From positions 496,001-560,000 of the forward strand of contig NZ_JBBIAB010000001.1 in the NCBI RefSeq assembly GCF_039634785.1: 64,000 nucleotides of DNA. The letters are read 5' to 3'. Shown here piece by piece: positions 8,878-31,322 of the stretch (positions are counted from its first letter, which is position 1; every line of letters begins with the position of its first letter). A model generated the notes under the pieces. That model was not told the DNA's origin. It worked only from the letters and a program-made list of their open reading frames with translations, and made no database searches. Made by a program: the position numbers and the translations under genes. This DNA comes from Tistrella mobilis. GTDB lineage: Bacteria; Pseudomonadota; Alphaproteobacteria; Tistrellales; Tistrellaceae.

Positions 8878-9987
8878 TCAGGCCCCGATCCTCAGAATCC
8901 GGGTCGTGACCCGGGCGAGCTGCACCGGGTCCGGTTCGGTGCCGAGGCCCGGCGCATCCAGCGGAGCGACCAGCCCCCGCCCGGTCAACTCGACCGGAAG
9001 GGTGGTGATGTCGGGGGCGAAATAGCGGGCGCTTTCTGCGACATCCGACGGATAGGTCATGCCGGGCAGGGTGGCGAGCGCGATATTCGTCCAGCGGCCG
9101 ATGCCGGTCTCGAATTTGGCCCCGGTGAAACAGCCGATACCCTCTGCCGCAAGCCGGTCGTGGATCGCCCTTGCCCGGATCAGCCCCCCGACCCGGCCGA
9201 CTTTGATGTTGACGGCGCGGGCCGCGCGACGTTCCAGCAGCTCGTCGACGTCCTCCATCGTGTGGATGCTTTCGTCCAGACAGACCGTGGTGTCCAGTCG
9301 GGACTGAAGGGCTGCATAGGCCTTCCAGTTGTGCGCGGCCATCGGCTGTTCCAGCAGCATCAGCCCGAAACGGTCGAAGCCGGTCAGATGATCCAGATCC
9401 TCAGGCCCATAGGCGCCGTTTGCATCAGCCAGCACCGGCATATGGGGCAGTTCGGTGCGCAGCGCCGACAGCGGCTCCACATCCCAGCCGGGTTTGATCT
9501 TCACCTTGATCCGGTGATAGCCGCCATCTTCCGCCCGCCGGGCCGCCGCCAGCAGATCGGCGACGCTTCCGGTCACGCCGATCGTGGCGCTGGCCTTCAC
9601 CGGTCTGATGGCGCCGCCGATACGCACCGCCAGTGCCACGCCATCGCGGCGGGCCAGCAGGTCGTGCAACGCCACTTCCAGCGCTGCAATGGTCTCGACA
9701 TGGCCGGCGACGTCGCGGAACCGGTTGAGCATGTCTTCCGGTCCGTCCACGTCGCTGCCGACCAGCAGCGGCGCCAGGTGCCGCTCGATGATGTGCCAGG
9801 CGGTCTCGATCGTTTCGTAATGGTAGAAGGGCGACTCCATGGCCGTGCATTCGCCCCAGCCCGACAGCCCGTCGGACCGGATCTCGACGATCAGCTTGGT
9901 CCAGCGTTCCATGCGCTGCCAGCGATTGGCGAAGGGCGCCACCATCTTCGGCGTCACGAAACGCAGCACGATCTCGTCGATCCGCAT
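8878..9987 (-). CDS. Enolase-superfamily enzyme, o-succinylbenzoate synthase / N-acylamino-acid racemase type
   Basis: A 369-residue protein of the muconate-lactonizing subgroup. It has the catalytic lysine motif KVKIKPGWD, metal ligands in ADANGAY, LLEQPM and CLDES, and the second lysine in NIKVGRVGG. The KIKPGWD form is characteristic of the OSBS/N-succinylamino-acid racemase branch rather than mandelate racemase. No menaquinone genes are nearby, so racemisation of an N-acyl amino acid or a related reaction is more likely than menaquinone synthesis. That choice is an inference. ATG 9987 follows AGGGAGA; an upstream ATG at 10038 lacks support. Confidence 0.82.
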   Translation of the reverse strand: MRIDEIVLRFVTPKMVAPFANRWQRMERWTKLIVEIRSDGLSGWGECTAMESPFYHYETIETAWHIIERHLAPLLVGSDVDGPEDMLNRFRDVAGHVETIAALEVALHDLLARRDGVALAVRIGGAIRPVKASATIGVTGSVADLLAAARRAEDGGYHRIKVKIKPGWDVEPLSALRTELPHMPVLADANGAYGPEDLDHLTGFDRFGLMLLEQPMAAHNWKAYAALQSRLDTTVCLDESIHTMEDVDELLERRAARAVNIKVGRVGGLIRARAIHDRLAAEGIGCFTGAKFETGIGRWTNIALATLPGMTYPSDVAESARYFAPDITTLPVELTGRGLVAPLDAPGLGTEPDPVQLARVTTRILRIGA

Positions 9988-10044
9988 CGGGGAGTCTCCC
10001 TGGGGTTGAGATGATCCAGGGATGATAGCGACAGGCAAATATCA

Positions 10045-10058
10045 ATCCAACGTTGAAT
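10045..10058. promoter_or_regulatory. Candidate operator: 14-bp near-palindrome
   Basis: ATCCAACGTTGAAT contains the perfect palindrome CAACGTTG and is symmetric except at one pair. It lies 58 bases upstream of the enolase-superfamily start, in an AT-rich patch, and is a plausible binding site for the adjacent IclR regulator. Confidence 0.4.
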
Positions 10059-10074
10059 ATCGAGGTAAGGAAGA

Positions 10075-10098
10075 CCGCGGGGCCCAAGGGCACCGCGG
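10075..10098 (-). terminator. Hairpin downstream of the serine hydrolase gene
   Basis: CCGCGG...CCGCGG outer arms and a GCC/GGC inner stem with one mismatch, 10 bases past the stop of the minus-strand hydrolase. The following minus-strand sequence is TCTTCCTT, so termination is plausible but the T tract is interrupted. Confidence 0.45.
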
Positions 10099-10107
10099 CC
10101 TCGCGGT

Positions 10108-11415
10108 TCAGCGTGTCATGGCACCATAGACGCCCTGGCGAACGATCAGCCGATAAGGTTCACGTTGCGAGACGCTCTGCATCATGTAGACCACCAGCAG
10201 CTTCTCGCGCGGGTCGATCCAGAAATAGGTGCCGGCATAGCCGCCCCAATAGAGATCGCCGGTGCTGCCCGGCCAGGCACCGTCCTCGCCCCGACGCACG
10301 GCGAAGCCCAGGCCGAAACCATAGCCCAGGGGGCCCAGCCCGCCGGTATCGATCTCGGGCGTCAGATGATCGGCGGTCATCAGCCGCACGCTGGCCGGGC
10401 TCAGGATCCGGGTGCCCTCCAGCTCGCCGCCATTCAGGATCATGCGCAGGAAGCGCAGATAGTCGCGGGTGCTGCCGTACATGCCGCCGCCGCCCGAAAG
10501 GAAGGTATCGGGGTGCGCAGGGTCGAGCAGCTCGGGCGGCTTGTTGCCGAAAGCGGCCTCGGGGTCGGCGGCCGCCACCCGGCTGCGCAGGGCCTCGGGC
10601 ACGTGGAAGAAAGTCTCGGTCATACCAAGCGGCTTCAGCACCAGCCCGGCCACGACCTCATCCAGCGGTTTGCCGGCGGCGACTTCCAGCACCCGGCCAA
10701 GCAGGTCCGTCGAGCGGCCATATTCCCAAAGCGTGCCCGGTTCCGCCACCAGGGGCAGCTTCGCCAGCCTGGCTGCATACTGTTCGTTGGTATCGGTCCA
10801 GAGATGGGTGCCGGCTGCCAGATAGCGGCTCTTGATCGCCGACTTGCCGAACACGCCATAGGTCAGGCCGCTGGTGTGGCGCAGAAGATCACGCACCGTC
10901 ATCTTGTGTGTGGCGGGGGTGGTCTCGACCGTCGGCTTGCCATCGGCACCGGCGACCTCGCGGCCGACCTCCAGCCTGGCGAAATCCGGCAGATAGGCCG
11001 AGACGGGGGCCGCCAGCAGCAGCCGCCCGTCTTCGATCAGGCGCATGGCCGCGACCGATACGATCGGTTTGGTCATGGAATAGAGCCGGAACAGGCTGTC
11101 TTCGGTCATTTTCGTGCCGGCAGCCCGATCCTGCCACCCGACGGCACGCAGTGTGACCAGCTGCCCGTCACGTTCGACGGCAAGCACGGCGCCCGGAATG
11201 CGGCCGGCTTCGGCATCTGCTGCCAGCCGGTCGCCAAGGGCGGTGAGCCGGGCGGCATCGAAGCCCGCGCCCGCGGCATCCGCGACAGTGGTTTCCGCAG
11301 CCCGGGCAGCCGGAAGGCCGGGTATCGTCGTCAGCAGGGCTGCGGCCAGAAGGGCGGCGTGCAACGACCGGCGTCGGCCGACCGCCGATCCGGCAAGGGA
11401 TGTGAGACAGATCAT
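10108..11415 (-). CDS. Secreted serine hydrolase, class C beta-lactamase / family VIII esterase fold
   Basis: A 435-residue protein with a signal peptide of about 38 residues ending in PAARA-A, so a periplasmic location is expected. The penicillin-binding-protein-like core has the SxxK nucleophile motif SMTKP and a tyrosine motif in YGRSTDLLG. The third motif appears as WGGYAGTYF instead of the KTG of true beta-lactamases. That pattern fits family VIII carboxylesterases or D-aminopeptidase-like enzymes better than antibiotic resistance. The natural substrate is unknown. It is transcribed towards the enolase-superfamily gene but separated from it by a hairpin. Confidence 0.82.
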   Translation of the reverse strand: MICLTSLAGSAVGRRRSLHAALLAAALLTTIPGLPAARAAETTVADAAGAGFDAARLTALGDRLAADAEAGRIPGAVLAVERDGQLVTLRAVGWQDRAAGTKMTEDSLFRLYSMTKPIVSVAAMRLIEDGRLLLAAPVSAYLPDFARLEVGREVAGADGKPTVETTPATHKMTVRDLLRHTSGLTYGVFGKSAIKSRYLAAGTHLWTDTNEQYAARLAKLPLVAEPGTLWEYGRSTDLLGRVLEVAAGKPLDEVVAGLVLKPLGMTETFFHVPEALRSRVAAADPEAAFGNKPPELLDPAHPDTFLSGGGGMYGSTRDYLRFLRMILNGGELEGTRILSPASVRLMTADHLTPEIDTGGLGPLGYGFGLGFAVRRGEDGAWPGSTGDLYWGGYAGTYFWIDPREKLLVVYMMQSVSQREPYRLIVRQGVYGAMTR

Positions 11416-24678: not shown

Positions 24679-25836
24679 ATGACCGCGTCCGCCGCCAGCC
24701 TTTCCGATCCCGCCGCTGCCCGACGTCCCCGCATCTGTCTCGGTATCGAGACCAGCTGCGACGAGACGGCGGCGGCCGTGGTCGTGTCCGATCCGGCCGC
24801 GCAGCCGGGGCAGGGGCGGCCGCTCGGCACCATCCGCGCCCATCTGGTGCTCTCGCAGATCGACGAGCATCAGGGCTTCGGCGGGGTGGTGCCAGAGATC
24901 GCGGCACGCGCCCATATCGACCATCTGGACCGGCTGGTCGCGGCGACGCTGGACGAGGCGAAGCTGGGGCTGGGCGATCTGGATGCCATCGCCGTCACCT
25001 CGGGCCCGGGGCTGATCGGCGGGGTGATGGTCGGTCTGATGACCGCCAAGGGGCTGGCGCTGGGCGCGGGCGTGCCGCTGCTCGGCATCAATCATCTGGA
25101 GGCGCATGCCTTGACCGCCCGCCTCACCCATGGCGTCGCCTTTCCCTTCCTGCTGCTGCTGGTCTCGGGCGGCCATTGCCTGATCGCCGAGGTCACCGGC
25201 CTCGGGCAGTATCGCCGCCTGGGCGCCACCATCGACGATGCGGTGGGCGAGGCCTTCGACAAGACCGCCCGCCTGCTGGGCCTCGGCTATCCCGGCGGGC
25301 CGGCGGTCGAAGCGGCCGCCCGCGACGGCGATCCCGCCCGTTTTGCCTTTCCGCGGCCGATGATCGGCCGGCCGGATTGCGACTTCTCGTTCTCGGGCCT
25401 CAAGACCGCGGTCCGTCAGGAGGCGGAGCGGATCCGGGTGCTGAGCCGGCAGGACGTCGCCGATCTGGCGGCAAGCTTTCAGGCCGCGGTGTCCGACAGC
25501 GTCGCCGACCGGGTCGGCCGCGCGGCCAAGGCATTCGTGGCCAGCCATGGCCGCGGCCATGCGCTGGTGGTGGCCGGCGGTGTCGCCGCGAACACCGCGC
25601 TGCGCACCCGGCTGGGCGATGTCGCCACCCGGCGCGGCCTGCATCTGGTGGCACCGCCGGTCAGGCTGTGCACCGACAACGGGGCGATGATCGCCTGGGC
25701 CGGTCTGGAGCATCTGGCGGCGGGGGGCGACCTGTCCGCCGATGACGGCCTGGCCCTGATCCCCCGCGCCCGCTGGCCGCTCGACCCCCATGCCGAGCAG
25801 ATCGTGGCCGGTGGCCGGGGACGGCATCGGGGCTAG
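24679..25836 (+). CDS. tsaD: tRNA N6-threonylcarbamoyladenosine transferase TsaD
   Basis: A 385-residue ASKHA-fold protein that, with TsaB and TsaE, places the threonylcarbamoyl group on A37 of tRNAs reading ANN codons. It has the N-terminal [14 protein letters not shown], the metal-binding histidines in INHLEAHA, the nucleotide loop GGHCLIAEV, and a late aspartate in [10 protein letters not shown]. About 30 residues longer than E. coli TsaD, mostly at the N-terminus. It ends 11 bases before the convergent sulfotransferase gene. Confidence 0.96.
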
Positions 25837-25847
25837 GACGCCAGCGC

Positions 25848-26894
25848 TCAGACGGGATAGCCCAACGCCTCCAGCCCCGGCCGGCAGGCGTCGGTGAGGG
25901 CGGTATAGACGTCCGGCGGCAGGTCGGCGGCGCGGGAGCGGGCGGGGCGCGGGATGGCCGAGACCTCGTCGAGCCAGGCCGGATCGTCGAGGCCGGGATC
26001 GATGAAGTGGATCATGGCCTGAAGCTGTTCGCGGGGCGCGCGCTGAACGTCTTCGAAGGCGACGGTCAGCAGGCGGTCGGGCGGCAGCGGGTCCAGAACC
26101 TCGCGGGCGAGGCCGATCATCAGGCTCCAGAAGGCGCCGAGTTCGGGCAGGGTGACGCCCTCCGCCAGCCGGCGGGCATTGATGAACGGGAAGATCATCC
26201 GCTGGGAGAGGACATCGAGCTGCCGGCCCCGATCGCGGGTGAATTCGCGGGTCGCATCCACGCCCAGGCGGCGGGCCGCCTTCATCGCACCGACCAGTAC
26301 CTTGAAATTGTGATGCTTCTCCATCGACATTGCGGTGTCGCGGCCGTCGCGATGGACATGGATCACGCGGGCGTCGGGGAAGAGGCGGAGCAGCTTGGCC
26401 GCCAGCATCAGCGACCCGCCGGAACGCTCGATCCAGACCCTGCGGCCAAGGCGGCCGGCGAGGTCTTCGAAGAGGGCCCGGTACTGATCGGCAATCGGCA
26501 TCGCCGGCCGCGCCCGCACCACGGGTTCCAGCGCATCGTAGAGCGCTTCGGGGGCGTCGGTCAGATGCGGCAGGGTGACCATCATCATCGGCGGCAGATC
26601 CGCCAGGCCGTAGCGCATGCCCGGCTGATCATAGGGGTAGAGCATTTCGTCGACGACGATGCCGTCGCGGAGCATGGCGCGGAGCGCCGGGCTCTGGCGG
26701 GAGAGGATCCGCCAGAAGCCGTCGCCGCCGATGCTGTCATGGGCGAAGGCCTCGGGGCCGAGCGGCACGAAGAATTCCGACAGGCTGAGCACAGCCGGAT
26801 GGCGGGAGAGCAGGTCCGAGATCATGGTGGACCCGCATCGCCCGGTGCTCAGCACCAGCACCGGCGGGATGTCGGTGGTCCGGGTCACGGTCAC
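25848..26894 (-). CDS. Sulfotransferase-family protein
   Basis: A 348-residue P-loop protein. The PAPS 5'-phosphosulfate loop is at the N-terminus (LVLSTGRCGSTMISDLL, about residues 12-28), and the 3'-phosphate motif near residue 190 (VIHVHRDGRDTAMS). It should transfer sulfate from PAPS to a hydroxyl or amine on an unknown acceptor. The start is GTG at 26894, overlapping the stop of the upstream oxygenase-like gene (GTGA), so the genes are translationally coupled. A downstream in-frame GTG at 26888 is possible. The coupling to two MpaB/Lcp-type proteins suggests that oxidation and sulfation act on one substrate. Confidence 0.82.
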   Translation of the reverse strand: MTVTRTTDIPPVLVLSTGRCGSTMISDLLSRHPAVLSLSEFFVPLGPEAFAHDSIGGDGFWRILSRQSPALRAMLRDGIVVDEMLYPYDQPGMRYGLADLPPMMMVTLPHLTDAPEALYDALEPVVRARPAMPIADQYRALFEDLAGRLGRRVWIERSGGSLMLAAKLLRLFPDARVIHVHRDGRDTAMSMEKHHNFKVLVGAMKAARRLGVDATREFTRDRGRQLDVLSQRMIFPFINARRLAEGVTLPELGAFWSLMIGLAREVLDPLPPDRLLTVAFEDVQRAPREQLQAMIHFIDPGLDDPAWLDEVSAIPRPARSRAADLPPDVYTALTDACRPGLEALGYPV

Positions 26895-28063
26895 GACGGG
26901 CGGTCCTTTTCGGCATGGAGATGGGCGGGCATGCGGTAGTCGTTGCCGGCCCCGTCCGAAAAGGAGAGGTCGATCATCTGCGCGAACTGGAAGGCGCGGC
27001 GGCGGCGATCCCAGGCCGGGACGTGGCGGCGCAGCACCCGGTCGGCCCGGTTGCGCAGGCGCAGGGCCGCCAGGGCACCGAAATTGCGTGCGGGCGGGTA
27101 GTTCAGCGCATCGGCCATCTGATCGCCGATCATGCCCCGCGACACCGAATAGATCAGGCGGACCAGCTTGCGGCGCTCGCCCGCATCGGTGATGCCGGCG
27201 ACCACCGGTGCCGAATTGATCAGACCGTTGGCGAGCAGGATCGCCTCCAGATCCGGCGGTGGCTCCGCCGCCATGCCCAGGCGGAAGAGATGCATGGCGG
27301 CGGCTTCGTCTGCCGCCTGCAGCTCGGGCGCCACCCCCATCAGATGGCCGGAATAGCGCCAGATCATCATGAAGGAGCGGCGCTCGTCCTCGGTGGGCTC
27401 GACGCCGAGTTTGCGGGCGCGATCGAGCAATCCGCCCGAGAAGGCGGCGGTGGCGAAAGCGATATGGGCGGAGCTGAGCGGCACGCCCCAGGCCGGGCCG
27501 TCCCATTCCTCCGCCGTCGCCAGCAAGACGCGCAGCCGGGCATGCATCAGCCGGATGCGGACCGACATCTTCCAGCCATCGCCATGACGGTCGAGCCCGC
27601 CGGGCAGAAAAATCTCCGAGATGTGGCGGTTGTTCTGTTTCAGCCGCCGCACGCCCTGATCCACCAGCCGGCCGGTGATGGAGAACGACTTGCTGATCAG
27701 GGTGGAGAAGCCCTCGACCAGCACGGCGCCCACGAAGGCCGCGATGAACATCTCGGAATTACCATGGAAAGCCCGGCAGCCCGGGCCGGTGAAGCCGGGA
27801 TCGAACCAGTCGGGCACCCGCTCGGTTTCGGCCAGGAAATCCCGCCAGGCGGCAGGGGCATCGGCCACGGCCGTCGGGCCGCCATCCATGCCCCGGTGCA
27901 TCCAGTCGCGCTGAACCGGAGCCGGTACGTCACGGAAGGCCGCCATCACCGCATCTGCCAGAGGATCGCCGATCATGGTATGACGGAGATATGTTTCGGT
28001 CAGTGCAGGATCGATGCGGCGGGCACGGGCCATGCCGTCCTGGTAGGCACTCGGGATCTGCAT
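26891..28063 (-). CDS. Oxygenase MpaB/Lcp family protein (DUF2236), copy 2
   Basis: A 390-residue all-helical soluble protein of the MpaB / latex-clearing-protein family, whose studied members are haem b enzymes that cleave isoprenoid chains with O2. The conserved core includes CRAFHGNSEMF, SISKSF-like ISKSFSITGRLVDQG, EIFLPGGL and RIRLMHARLR, whose histidine is the likely haem ligand. Later come AHIAF, LANGLINSAP and RNRADRVLRRH. There is no signal peptide, unlike secreted rubber oxygenases. It is a paralogue of the gene 24 bases upstream and overlaps the sulfotransferase downstream. Substrate unknown; haem content is family-based inference. Confidence 0.78.
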   Translation of the reverse strand: MQIPSAYQDGMARARRIDPALTETYLRHTMIGDPLADAVMAAFRDVPAPVQRDWMHRGMDGGPTAVADAPAAWRDFLAETERVPDWFDPGFTGPGCRAFHGNSEMFIAAFVGAVLVEGFSTLISKSFSITGRLVDQGVRRLKQNNRHISEIFLPGGLDRHGDGWKMSVRIRLMHARLRVLLATAEEWDGPAWGVPLSSAHIAFATAAFSGGLLDRARKLGVEPTEDERRSFMMIWRYSGHLMGVAPELQAADEAAAMHLFRLGMAAEPPPDLEAILLANGLINSAPVVAGITDAGERRKLVRLIYSVSRGMIGDQMADALNYPPARNFGALAALRLRNRADRVLRRHVPAWDRRRRAFQFAQMIDLSFSDGAGNDYRMPAHLHAEKDRPS

Positions 28064-28087
28064 GCGTGGCTCCGGGCAGGCGTCAGG

Positions 28088-29251
28088 TCAGGCGGGGAGT
28101 TCGTCCTCCGCCGCCGCTTGGGGAAGGCCGGTGTCCAGCCCCTCGAAGGAGAGATCGAGCAGCTGGGTGAACTGACCGGCACGGCGGCGGCGGTCATAGA
28201 AACCGATATGCCGGCGCAGCAGCAGATCGGCCCGGTTGCGCAGCCGGATCGCGGTCAGGGTATCCATGCCGCGGGTCTCGGGGAAGTGCAGGGCGGTTGC
28301 GAGATCGCCACCGATTAACCCGCGCGAGATGCCGTAGAGTTGTCGTACCAGCTTGCGGCGCAGGTCGGGATCATCGACCCCGGCGGCCATCGGGGCGGAA
28401 TTGATCAGCCCGTTGGCGAGCACGATGCCTTCGATCTCGGGCGGCGGTTCCATCATCCGGCCGATCCGGAACAGCTGCTGGGCCTCGATTTCATGGCGCG
28501 GCAGCAGCTCGGCCGGCACGCCGGTCAGATGGCCGGCCATGCGCCAGATCATCATGAAGGCGCGGCGCTCTTCGGGGAACAGCTCCACACCCAGCACCCG
28601 GGCGCGTTCCAGCAGGCGGCCCGACAGAGCGGCATTCATGAAGGCGATATGGGCGGCGCTGAGCGGCGTGCCCCAGTCTTCATGGTTCCAGTCGGCGGAG
28701 CGCGCGGTCAGCAGGCGCAGGCGGGCATGCATCAGCCGGATGCGCAGCGCCATCTTCCAGCCTTCGCCGAATTCGCCGAGCCCGCCCGGCAGGAAGATCT
28801 CGGACAGCAGCTGGTTGTTCTGGCGGAAGCGCCGGCCGGCCTGATCCCCCAGCCGGCCGCTGGTGATGAAGGCCTTGGCGATCAGGGTCGAATAGGCTTC
28901 GACCAGCGAGCCCGCGACGAAGGCCGCGAGAAACATGCGTGAATTGCCGTGAAAGGCCCTGCAGCCGGGCAGGGTCCGGCTTTGGGTGAACCAGTAGGGC
29001 ACGTCCGTGGCATGCGCGAAGAGGTCGCGCAACGCCTGCGGCGCGTCACCCAGCCCGGCCAGACCTTCGTCCAGTCCGATCCGGATCCACGGGCGTTGTC
29101 GCGCGGTGGCGGCAGCCGCAACCGCCGCATCGGCAAGCGGGTCGCCCAGGCTCAGATGACGGGCATAACGCTCCGCCAGCCCGGCATCGAGAAGCCGGGC
29201 ACGGGCGAAGCCGTCCCGAAAGGCGGCGGGTATGTCCACGACCTGGGTCAT
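28088..29251 (-). CDS. Oxygenase MpaB/Lcp family protein (DUF2236), copy 1
   Basis: A 387-residue paralogue of the next gene, collinear over its whole length. Shared blocks are CRAFHGNS, TLIAKAF, GRLGDQAGRRFRQNNQ, EIFLPGGL, RIRLMHARLR, PLSAAHIAF, LANGLINSAP, RRKLVRQLYGISRGLIG and RNRADLLLRRH. The loops differ enough that this is an old duplication, so the two proteins may form a heteromer or act on different substrates. First gene of the minus-strand trio with copy 2 and the sulfotransferase. The start ATG 29251 gives the same N-terminal layout (IPAAFRDGFARARLLD) as copy 2. Confidence 0.78.
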   Translation of the reverse strand: MTQVVDIPAAFRDGFARARLLDAGLAERYARHLSLGDPLADAAVAAAATARQRPWIRIGLDEGLAGLGDAPQALRDLFAHATDVPYWFTQSRTLPGCRAFHGNSRMFLAAFVAGSLVEAYSTLIAKAFITSGRLGDQAGRRFRQNNQLLSEIFLPGGLGEFGEGWKMALRIRLMHARLRLLTARSADWNHEDWGTPLSAAHIAFMNAALSGRLLERARVLGVELFPEERRAFMMIWRMAGHLTGVPAELLPRHEIEAQQLFRIGRMMEPPPEIEGIVLANGLINSAPMAAGVDDPDLRRKLVRQLYGISRGLIGGDLATALHFPETRGMDTLTAIRLRNRADLLLRRHIGFYDRRRRAGQFTQLLDLSFEGLDTGLPQAAAEDELPA

Positions 29252-29368: not shown

Positions 29369-30208
29369 TCACTCCGTGGCAGGGATTTCTGCGCTGACGG
29401 CCGCCGGCGGCGGTGCCGCATCGGCGCGGTATTCGGTCCAGGCCAGGCGCGCCGAAAGCGCCAGACAGGTGCAGACCAGCAGCGGTTTCACGATCCGGGT
29501 GCCGCGGGCGATCACCAGGGCGGCCCCGATGCGGGCGCCGATGATCGCACCCGTGGCCATCACCGCCCCCAGCATCCAGTCGATATGGCCGCCGAGTGCG
29601 AAGACGGCGAGGGCCGAGAGATTGCTGGTCAGGTTGAGCAGCTTGGTCTCGGCCACCGCCCGGCGCATGCCGCGGCCATCGAGGGCGACCAGCGCCAGCA
29701 TGAAGAAGGAGCCGGTCCCGGGCCCGAAGAAGCCGTCATAGAAGCCGATCAGCGGCGCCACGATCCAGCCGGTGACCCAGCCCGGCACGCGGGCCTCGGC
29801 ATCGATATCGCCCACCCGTGGCGAGAGCAGGAAATAGGCGGCCATCACACCCAGCAGCACCGGCAGGATGCGGCCCAGTGCCGAGGGGTCGATCGACTGG
29901 ACGGCAAGCGACCCCAGGGCCGCGCCGGCCAGCACGGTCAGGATCCGCGGCACCACCTCGCGCACACGCACCTGGCCCGAGCGGACATAGGTGATCGCCG
30001 CCATGGCCGTGCCCATCGAGGACTGCACCTTGTTGGTGGCGATCGCGGTGGCAGGCGCCACGCCGGCTGCGAGCATGGCGGGCAGGGTGATCAGCCCGCC
30101 GCCGCCGGCGATGGCGTCGATGGCGGCGGCTACGACCGCGGCTGCGAACAGGGCCAGCAGCAGCTCCGGACCGACGGGATGGGTGAGAAAGGCCGACAGG
30201 ATGTCCAT
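29369..30208 (-). CDS. TauE/SafE-family membrane permease
   Basis: A 279-residue integral membrane protein with about eight hydrophobic segments. Typical family motifs are the inverted-repeat loops AAAIDAIAGGGGLITLPAML with TNKVQSSMGT near the N-terminus and GFYDGFFGPGTGSFFMLALV in the middle. Members export sulfite, sulfoacetate or related organosulfur anions, though many are uncharacterised. It is 117 bases upstream of the MpaB/sulfotransferase trio on the same strand. A link to sulfur handling with that trio is possible but unproven. Confidence 0.86.
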   Translation of the reverse strand: MDILSAFLTHPVGPELLLALFAAAVVAAAIDAIAGGGGLITLPAMLAAGVAPATAIATNKVQSSMGTAMAAITYVRSGQVRVREVVPRILTVLAGAALGSLAVQSIDPSALGRILPVLLGVMAAYFLLSPRVGDIDAEARVPGWVTGWIVAPLIGFYDGFFGPGTGSFFMLALVALDGRGMRRAVAETKLLNLTSNLSALAVFALGGHIDWMLGAVMATGAIIGARIGAALVIARGTRIVKPLLVCTCLALSARLAWTEYRADAAPPPAAVSAEIPATE

Positions 30209-30338: not shown

Positions 30339-31322
30339 TCAACCCTGGGCCGGGCGCACATCCTGTGCATGGGCGGCCATGGTGGCCGCAATCGCGCGCT
30401 CGGGCGCCGTCGGCCGGAAATCGGGCACCAGCACCTGAAGACGATTGCCGGTGAGCACGACCGGATCGTCGAACAGATAGCGCAGCTCCAGCAGCTCGCG
30501 GGCGACCGGATCGGTCAGGGCCGCCAGGCGCAGCAGCCACCAGGGCAGGCGCTTCGGGCCGAGCCGGGGGTGGCCTGCGGCAGCCGCCGCCATCTCCATG
30601 AAGCGGCGCTGCGTGTCGAACAGCTGCGCCGCCAGATGAACATGCTCCACGGGGGCCAGGCGTTCCGGCGCCTCGAGAAGGTCGGCGGTGAGCCGGGCGA
30701 GGTCGGGCACGAAGCACCACTGGTGCGGCAGGTCCAGCGGCCCCGGCCAGCGCGGCGCCTGTCCCTTCGCCAGCCTGGCGAAGATCATGTCGGTCAGCCC
30801 GTTGCGCACCGTGGGGCCGTAGAAATCGCCGGCGCGCAGGATCAAGACCGGTGCCGCGCCCTCGCGGCCCAGCGTCTCGATGGCGGTCTCGAGATCGGCG
30901 CGCAGCCGGCCCTTGACCGTATCGGGGCGGCGCTCCGCCTCTTCATGCAGCGGCCGGGCATCCTGGCGGCCGAAGGCATAGACATTGCCGGGGAAGACCA
31001 GGCGGGCACCGCTTGCGCGGGCACCTTCGATCGCGGCCGCGGTGATGCGGCGCATCGCCGGGTCCCATTGCGGATAGGGCAGGTTCACGGCATGGACGAT
31101 CGCATCCATGCCCTGCGCGGCATGGGCGACGAGCGCCGGGTCGCGGGCGTCGCCGACCACGATATCGGCGTCTTCCGGCAGGCCCAGCCGGCCGAGCCGG
31201 GCCGGATCGCGGACCAGAAGCCGCAGATACCAGCCGCGCCGGCCCAGCTCCTGCGCCATCGCGCCGCCGAACCCGCCCGCCGCCCCAAGGATCAGGGCCT
31301 GCCTGTTGCCGCTGTCGACCAT
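30339..31322 (-). CDS. NAD(P)-binding epimerase/reductase-like protein (extended SDR)
   Basis: A 327-residue Rossmann protein. The dinucleotide loop GAAGGFGGAMAQEL is at residues 13-26, followed by VVGDARD and IHAVNLPYPQW. In place of the usual YxxxK catalytic pair the chain has FPGNVYAFG, so a classical dehydratase or epimerase reaction is doubtful. Such proteins often act as NADPH-binding reductases or sensors (NmrA-like). Substrate unknown. Monocistronic as far as visible, with 258 bases to the divergent YciI gene. Confidence 0.72.
   Translation of the reverse strand: MVDSGNRQALILGAAGGFGGAMAQELGRRGWYLRLLVRDPARLGRLGLPEDADIVVGDARDPALVAHAAQGMDAIVHAVNLPYPQWDPAMRRITAAAIEGARASGARLVFPGNVYAFGRQDARPLHEEAERRPDTVKGRLRADLETAIETLGREGAAPVLILRAGDFYGPTVRNGLTDMIFARLAKGQAPRWPGPLDLPHQWCFVPDLARLTADLLEAPERLAPVEHVHLAAQLFDTQRRFMEMAAAAAGHPRLGPKRLPWWLLRLAALTDPVARELLELRYLFDDPVVLTGNRLQVLVPDFRPTAPERAIAATMAAHAQDVRPAQG

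Follow-up and report, generated by a model that had tools for sequence, protein, structure and literature searches.

A conserved DUF2236-sulfotransferase gene pair in Tistrella mobilis and its possible link to squalene-type lipids

Our analysis of a 64,000-nucleotide stretch of Tistrella mobilis DNA (hereafter the window; RefSeq assembly GCF_039634785.1, contig NZ_JBBIAB010000001.1, positions 496,001 to 560,000) indicated that one gene of the DUF2236 (MpaB/Lcp) family and the gene of a 3′-phosphoadenosine-5′-phosphosulfate (PAPS)-type sulfotransferase (ST) form a conserved unit, here called the pair. We propose, with a probability of about 0.5, that the pair belongs to a compact biosynthetic unit whose product would be an oxygenated and sulfated lipid of the squalene type. 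New features are the combination of DUF2236 with ST, its connection with squalene genes in genomes where no cyclase was detected, and an altered DUF2236 pocket. A literature search limited to titles and abstract openings, with few subscription journals covered, returned no link between DUF2236/MpaB and squalene and none between a sulfotransferase and a squalene lipid of bacteria. The window lies in genome G000 (6.16 Mb, 62 contigs); G codes denote genomes and L codes the loci compared. The features concerned are:

25848..26894, minus strand: ST, PAPS-type sulfotransferase (Sulfotransfer_3, E=2.9e-17), 348 aa, GTG start
26891..28063, minus strand: DUF2236/MpaB_Lcp paralogue B, putative ST-coupled haem-type oxygenase, 390 aa, ATG start (PF09995, E=2.5e-22)
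28088..29251, minus strand: DUF2236/MpaB_Lcp paralogue A, long-branched duplicate found in Tistrella only, 387 aa, ATG start (PF09995, E=2.3e-21)
27530..27559, minus strand: RIRLMHARLR segment of B, residues 169-178, with His174 aligned to the haem-ligand His198 of LcpK30
26891..26894, minus strand: GTGA stop/start overlap of B with ST, suggesting translational coupling

Results

The conserved unit was found to be one DUF2236 gene followed by ST. Paralogue A matched 25 of 385 genomes of the class (E<=1e-10), 15 of them with a close relative (>=40% identity) and 10 with distant relatives only. Neighbourhoods were compared in the 15 close-clade genomes and 2 distant ones, the other 8 distant-only genomes being left out of further comparison; genes were called by a simple codon-bias caller, so that starts may be wrong. 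The ST profile (alignment A2) was run against 18 chosen genomes, against 398 genomes of the phylum (E<=1e-40, at most five candidates scored per genome), and against the orders of G135 (4 genomes), G379 (36) and G273 (7), thus covering the class sample in part. Full-length matches were obtained in 6 of the 18 genomes, all adjoining DUF2236, alongside weak partial matches in two cases (G135:C5, 4e-10; G379, 6e-6), and only G000 matched among the 398. In total, 10 near STs (E<=1e-40) were identified in 9 genomes. Eight of these, from eight genomes of five families (G000, G162, G273, G135, G379, G766, G768 and G260), stand directly behind DUF2236, which bears out the coupling of oxygenase and sulfotransferase proposed in an initial annotation of this DNA. 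The remaining two, both in G746, are not behind DUF2236 (DUF2236 elsewhere in that genome was not searched). The distribution of ST is patchy: it was matched in one of the 4 genomes searched from the G135 order, in one of the 7 from the G273 order and in 4 of the 36, G746 included, from the G379 order. A 4-base GTGA or ATGA overlap is possible at all seven junctions read, with the G162 junction taken from coordinates, although the called start in G260 would make the overlap 7 bases. In other families, the ST relatives beside DUF2236 are 57-62% identical to the window ST (48% in G260; 4 loci compared), and the ST-coupled single DUF2236 copies are 57-60% identical to B (42% in G260).

The pair also showed a link to squalene synthesis, which fits the isoprenoid substrate guessed at in the initial annotation. 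In G379, G766 and G768, the operon reads DUF2236, ST, catalase-related protein, HpnC, HpnD and HpnE. The G766 proteins scored 250.2 for HpnC (NCBIfam cut-off 250.45), 325.5 for HpnD (278.6) and 348.2 for HpnE (283.05), and those of G768 scored 258.0, 321.1 and 357.9; in G379, where the HpnC gene call is broken and the proteins are unscanned, both synthase domains were found and the genes align with those of G766. In the other five pair genomes, hpnCDE lies away from the pair, as read in G000, G273, G135 and G260; the squalene genes of G162 are suggested by SQS_PSY and HpnD matches only. Tistrella HpnC and HpnD are fused into one protein of 593 aa (L118:9022-10803, G000:C21), the same length as in G001 (L127), and an HpnE-like gene follows; HpnD scored 279.5 (cut-off 278.6; 209.1, below it, in the genome search), whereas HpnC (245.7) and HpnE (245.4) fell below their cut-offs of 250.45 and 283.05. 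Squalene-synthesis genes were present in all eight pair genomes. No match to squalene-hopene cyclase (PF13243) was found in any of these eight, of which G273 is 89% complete; it was found in 5 of the 18 genomes searched. Tistrella is named among the genera without shc in the available part of PMC12583986. HpnD matches (E<=1e-40) were found in 14 of the 15 close-DUF2236 genomes versus 162 of 370 others (Fisher p=1.2e-4, the genomes not being independent), and in the fifteenth, G365, a squalene synthase gene (SQS_PSY, 2.5e-54) stands in the DUF2236 run with an MMPL gene between.

At the window locus, the gene order is A, B, ST, with 24 bases between A and B (28064-28087) and a 4-base B/ST overlap, as the initial annotation had described and as open reading frame coordinates and Pfam upheld. 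Both paralogues passed the PF09995 cut-off (MPAB_Lcp_cat, DUF2236; 80.5 and 77.3 bits versus 23), and the window ST passed that of Sulfotransfer_3 (64.1 bits versus 27); NCBIfam gave no name for ST or the DUF2236 proteins. ST carries LSTGRCGST and RDGRDTAMSM-like motifs, presumably with PAPS-binding roles, and similar motifs occur in its relatives where alignment A2 covers them (in its L040 row the gene call begins at an internal start). ST is a member of the PAPS sulfotransferase family, and its use of PAPS is predicted. Because no sigma-70-like promoter was found at the locus and the single terminator-like site is at chance level, operon status rests on spacing, overlap and conservation. A contig of T. 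mobilis KA081020-065 has an identical gene set and order, with paralogue A 99% identical, and dN/dS between the window and T. mobilis was ~0.24 for ST, ~0.10 for B and ~0.03 for A.

The active-site pattern of the clade both resembles and departs from that of the rubber oxygenase Lcp. Our count was based on 19 close-clade rows (alignment A6), which left out L011 (badly called), L051 and L052 (26-27%) and near-copies in L008. The clade profile matched the Lcp structures 5o1m and 5o1l (7e-19 and 8.7e-19). Positions corresponding to Arg164, Arg195, His198 and Arg202 of LcpK30 are kept in 19/19 rows (H174 and R140 in B), and the RIRLMHARLR segment is present in both paralogues, its His aligned with His198, as the initial annotation had anticipated. 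This pattern, with the ligand His and Arg164 kept, suggests that haem binding by the close-clade DUF2236 proteins is likely. In contrast, Lys167 is replaced by Gln143, Thr168 by Asn144 and Glu148 by Ile123, each in 19/19 rows, the last in a weakly conserved stretch of the alignment. In Lcps, His198 is the proximal and Lys167 the distal haem ligand, a Thr168Ala variant has 2% activity, and Thr168 occurs in 99.6% of 495 homologues, according to excerpts of PMC6311187. The three replacements ruled out a rubber oxygenase identity, and the earlier label "Lcp-type" proved too specific. By Kyte-Doolittle hydropathy, with no signal-peptide predictor run, the DUF2236 protein has no hydrophobic N-terminus, in line with the initial claim that signal peptides are lacking; a hydrophobic stretch begins near residue 105.

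The initial annotation had taken the tandem of A and B as the unit, and this view did not survive comparison. Among the genomes searched, the tandem and with it the three-gene order occur only in G000 and in G162, which is classed as the same species, so that the tandem was ruled out as the functional unit; outside Tistrella, a single DUF2236 gene stands ahead of ST. A and B are 56-57% identical over 390 aligned columns, and our tree grouped A, B and G016 with a support of 87/98. The branch of A is long (0.81) and that of B shorter (0.30), which suggests that A is the derived copy. The sister Tistrella species G001 keeps A and the TauE/SafE permease gene, with no B and no ST match; loss of B and ST in G001 would be the simpler explanation.

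Discussion

From the gene order, its conservation, family membership, the active-site pattern, the squalene genes and the lack of a cyclase match, all observed directly, we infer the haem, substrate, reaction, product and role as follows. HpnC, HpnD and HpnE, as assigned by family models, would make squalene. DUF2236 would be a b-type haem protein, located in the cytosol or facing the membrane, and would oxygenate squalene or a squalene-derived C30 isoprenoid, alternatively hydroxysqualene, which is a product of HpnC. The reaction may be either cleavage or hydroxylation; the hydroxyl would form in the reaction itself or when a cleavage aldehyde is reduced, and the translationally coupled ST would move sulfate from PAPS onto that hydroxyl. 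In some relatives, the catalase-related protein may have a hydroperoxide as its substrate or may clear peroxide. Tistrella has a duplicated oxygenase, and since A survives without ST in the sister species, this copy may attack a different position. The product would be an anionic amphiphile that could fill the place held elsewhere by hopanoids. A bolder version, in which a group of alphaproteobacteria with squalene synthesis but no squalene-hopene cyclase use DUF2236 proteins with this new active site and ST to make an acyclic sulfated triterpenoid as a hopanoid substitute, is put forward only tentatively. If true, the proposal would explain the fate of squalene in bacterial producers that have no hopene cyclase, would assign a function and a probable substrate to one clade of DUF2236, a large family whose members are mostly uncharacterised, and would establish a further class of sulfated lipids in bacteria.

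Several observations weigh against a squalene-type product. The hpnCDE operon comes from one genus, so that G379, G766 and G768 count as one event, and only 3 of the 6 searched genomes of that genus have ST; the Tistrella hpnCDE genes lie on a separate contig (G000:C21). G016 and G001 have DUF2236 and hpnCDE, yet no ST match, and the close-clade loci L010, L043 and L045, and also L047, have neither ST nor MMPL. The ST-linked DUF2236 genes are not one clade: the ST label needs four changes on the tree, at least two of them by well-supported branches, suggesting repeated gain or loss of the coupling. An hpnD-like gene is no rarity in the class, with E<=1e-40 matches in 176 of 385 genomes (115 of them above cut-off), and at the curated cut-off HpnD was found in 10 of 15 close-clade genomes versus 105 of 370 others (p=0.003, uncorrected for kinship). 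The cyclase contrast, 0 of 8 genomes with ST versus 4 of 9 with DUF2236 only, is not significant (p=0.08), and many alphaproteobacterial genera are without shc. Because the Lcp pocket residues Glu, Lys and Thr are replaced, the enzyme may catalyse something other than C=C cleavage. An AlphaFold model of four rows reached a pLDDT of 37.6 and a pTM of 0.29, and at this low confidence the haem pocket rests on sequence alignment.

The nearest precedent is CYP128/Stf3 of Mycobacterium tuberculosis, in which a haem oxygenase gene adjoins a sulfotransferase gene and an isoprenoid lipid is hydroxylated and then sulfated to sulfomenaquinone; in the available text, the genes are described as one operon, with CYP128 hydroxylating MK-9 and Stf3 sulfating the product (PMC7404182). 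It differs in using a P450 and menaquinone where our system has DUF2236 and a proposed squalene product. The undescribed oxidise-then-sulfate pathway of the initial annotation is therefore new for these enzymes but not in its logic. By analogy, DUF2236 could oxidise and ST sulfate some other isoprenoid acceptor, such as a ubiquinone tail or polyprenol. The separation of the pair from the squalene genes in Tistrella, G273, G135 and G260 would suit such an acceptor, whereas hpnCDE within the pair operon of G379, G766 and G768 and the squalene synthase near DUF2236 in G365 argue for squalene, and we regard another acceptor as unlikely.

A C30 carotenoid appears less probable again. In Methylobacterium extorquens, squalene made by HpnCDE is channelled into C30 carotenoids, as excerpts of PMC10448405 report, and DUF2236, ST and the catalase-related protein could tailor or cleave such a carotenoid. 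G379 (L123) and G135 (L121) each have a further phytoene-synthase-like gene in an apparent pigment cluster, the neighbours being unscanned, which makes carotenoids likely there. However, the flavoproteins beside hpnC/hpnD score as HpnE, above cut-off in 6 of 7 scanned (that of Tistrella falling below), and no CrtN/CrtP-like gene was noticed by the pair among its partly scanned neighbours, the genomes not being searched for CrtN. The weakest alternative, a catabolic or detoxifying pair in which DUF2236 attacks foreign unsaturated hydrocarbons, ST solubilises the products and squalene genes are adjacent by chance, would agree with the degradative Lcp and Nro1 (available parts of PMC6311187 and PMC12724181) and with the patchy distribution of the unit, but is improbable given the lack of a signal-peptide-like N-terminus by hydropathy, the operon shared with squalene synthesis in one genus and the few amino-acid changes between strains.

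The proposed squalene-type product can also be set against what is known of the oxygenase family. Purwani et al. in 2024 reportedly treated bacterial MpaB-family oxygenases that cleave C=C bonds. In the parts of the sources available, MpaB and Lcp cleave isoprenoid C=C bonds (PMC12724181, PMC6311187), and MpaB-family proteins, including Nro1, target the C=C bonds in chains of isoprenoid or polyene type (PMC12724181). The clade shares with Lcp the PF09995 domain and the His198, Arg164, Arg195 and Arg202 positions; it differs in having Ile/Gln/Asn for Glu148/Lys167/Thr168, an ST partner and, by hydropathy, no sign of the secretion signal of Lcp. Nro1 has Asp and Lys where the clade has Ile and Gln (excerpts of PMC12724181), and MpaB and Nro1 also differ in genomic setting, the clade having ST and hpnCDE context. 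The hopanoid pathway (hpnCDE-shc, HpnN) is alike in its squalene-forming enzymes and in the MMPL proteins that stand beside oxygenase relatives, but has the squalene-hopene cyclase for which the eight pair genomes gave no match.

Neighbouring genes and related loci

Two further genes bound the unit in the window:

29369..30208, minus strand: TauE/SafE permease (TauE, E=1.2e-47), 117 bases upstream, outside the unit
24679..25836, plus strand: TsaD, convergent neighbour marking the unit boundary

The permease lies just upstream, as the initial annotation had noted; its membership in the pathway was ruled out, since G001 retains it in the absence of ST and no other family showed it next to the pair. 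An NAD-epimerase gene (30339-31322) was ruled out on like grounds: G001 again retains the gene without ST, and neither it nor the permease clusters with any neighbour of the pair in other families. G000 has a third, distant DUF2236 gene at L011, about 9786-10409 (G000:C6:239785-240408).

DUF2236 relatives without ST adjoin MMPL transporters at six loci in six genomes. The one MMPL protein scanned is HpnN-like, far under the model cut-off (94.8 versus 751.85 bits). LolA-like or DUF1302-like genes occur at 4 of the 6 MMPL loci, with Pfam support for L041 and for one L046 protein, the latter just below cut-off, and genes resembling these LolA-like and DUF1302 proteins adjoin hpnCDE in G075.

The gene of a catalase-related haem-type protein comes next after ST in 5 of the 8 pair loci. 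Pfam gave no match for the five proteins tried, and NCBIfam gave no name for the four tried; the profile matched 3e4w (6e-8), with an insignificant match to the coral allene oxide synthase 1u5u (1.5). The position aligned with the Thr-His of 1u5u, whose His we take to be the distal His, is Tyr in one of the five operon copies. The Tistrella locus has no such gene, but a homologue is present on a different contig (L069:9314-10264); the G001 homologue was matched in two separate pieces only (L071, about 9115-9847), and G260 gave no match.

Related STs were also seen in other settings. On a Gemmobacter aquarius plasmid (L078), an ST 33% identical to that of the window stands directly behind a haem oxygenase gene, as in the pair, but here a P450 serves as the oxygenase and alpha/beta hydrolase genes lie on either side; the tight run at L078:6000-9904 reads alpha/beta hydrolase, P450, sulfotransferase and second alpha/beta hydrolase. 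On Ketogulonicigenium and Paracoccus plasmids (L076, L077, L079), a related ST stands behind a TetR regulator and is divergent from a run of four genes, for a KSIII, an epimerase, an MBL hydrolase and an F390 synthetase-related protein, that resembles ole genes. In G746, a lone related ST (L083:5653-11585) lies ~2.1 kb from the PAPS-forming genes cysNC and cysD. The same genome, which has a hopene cyclase match, carries a squalene synthase-like gene followed, one gene on, by a P450 (L125:9335-13042).

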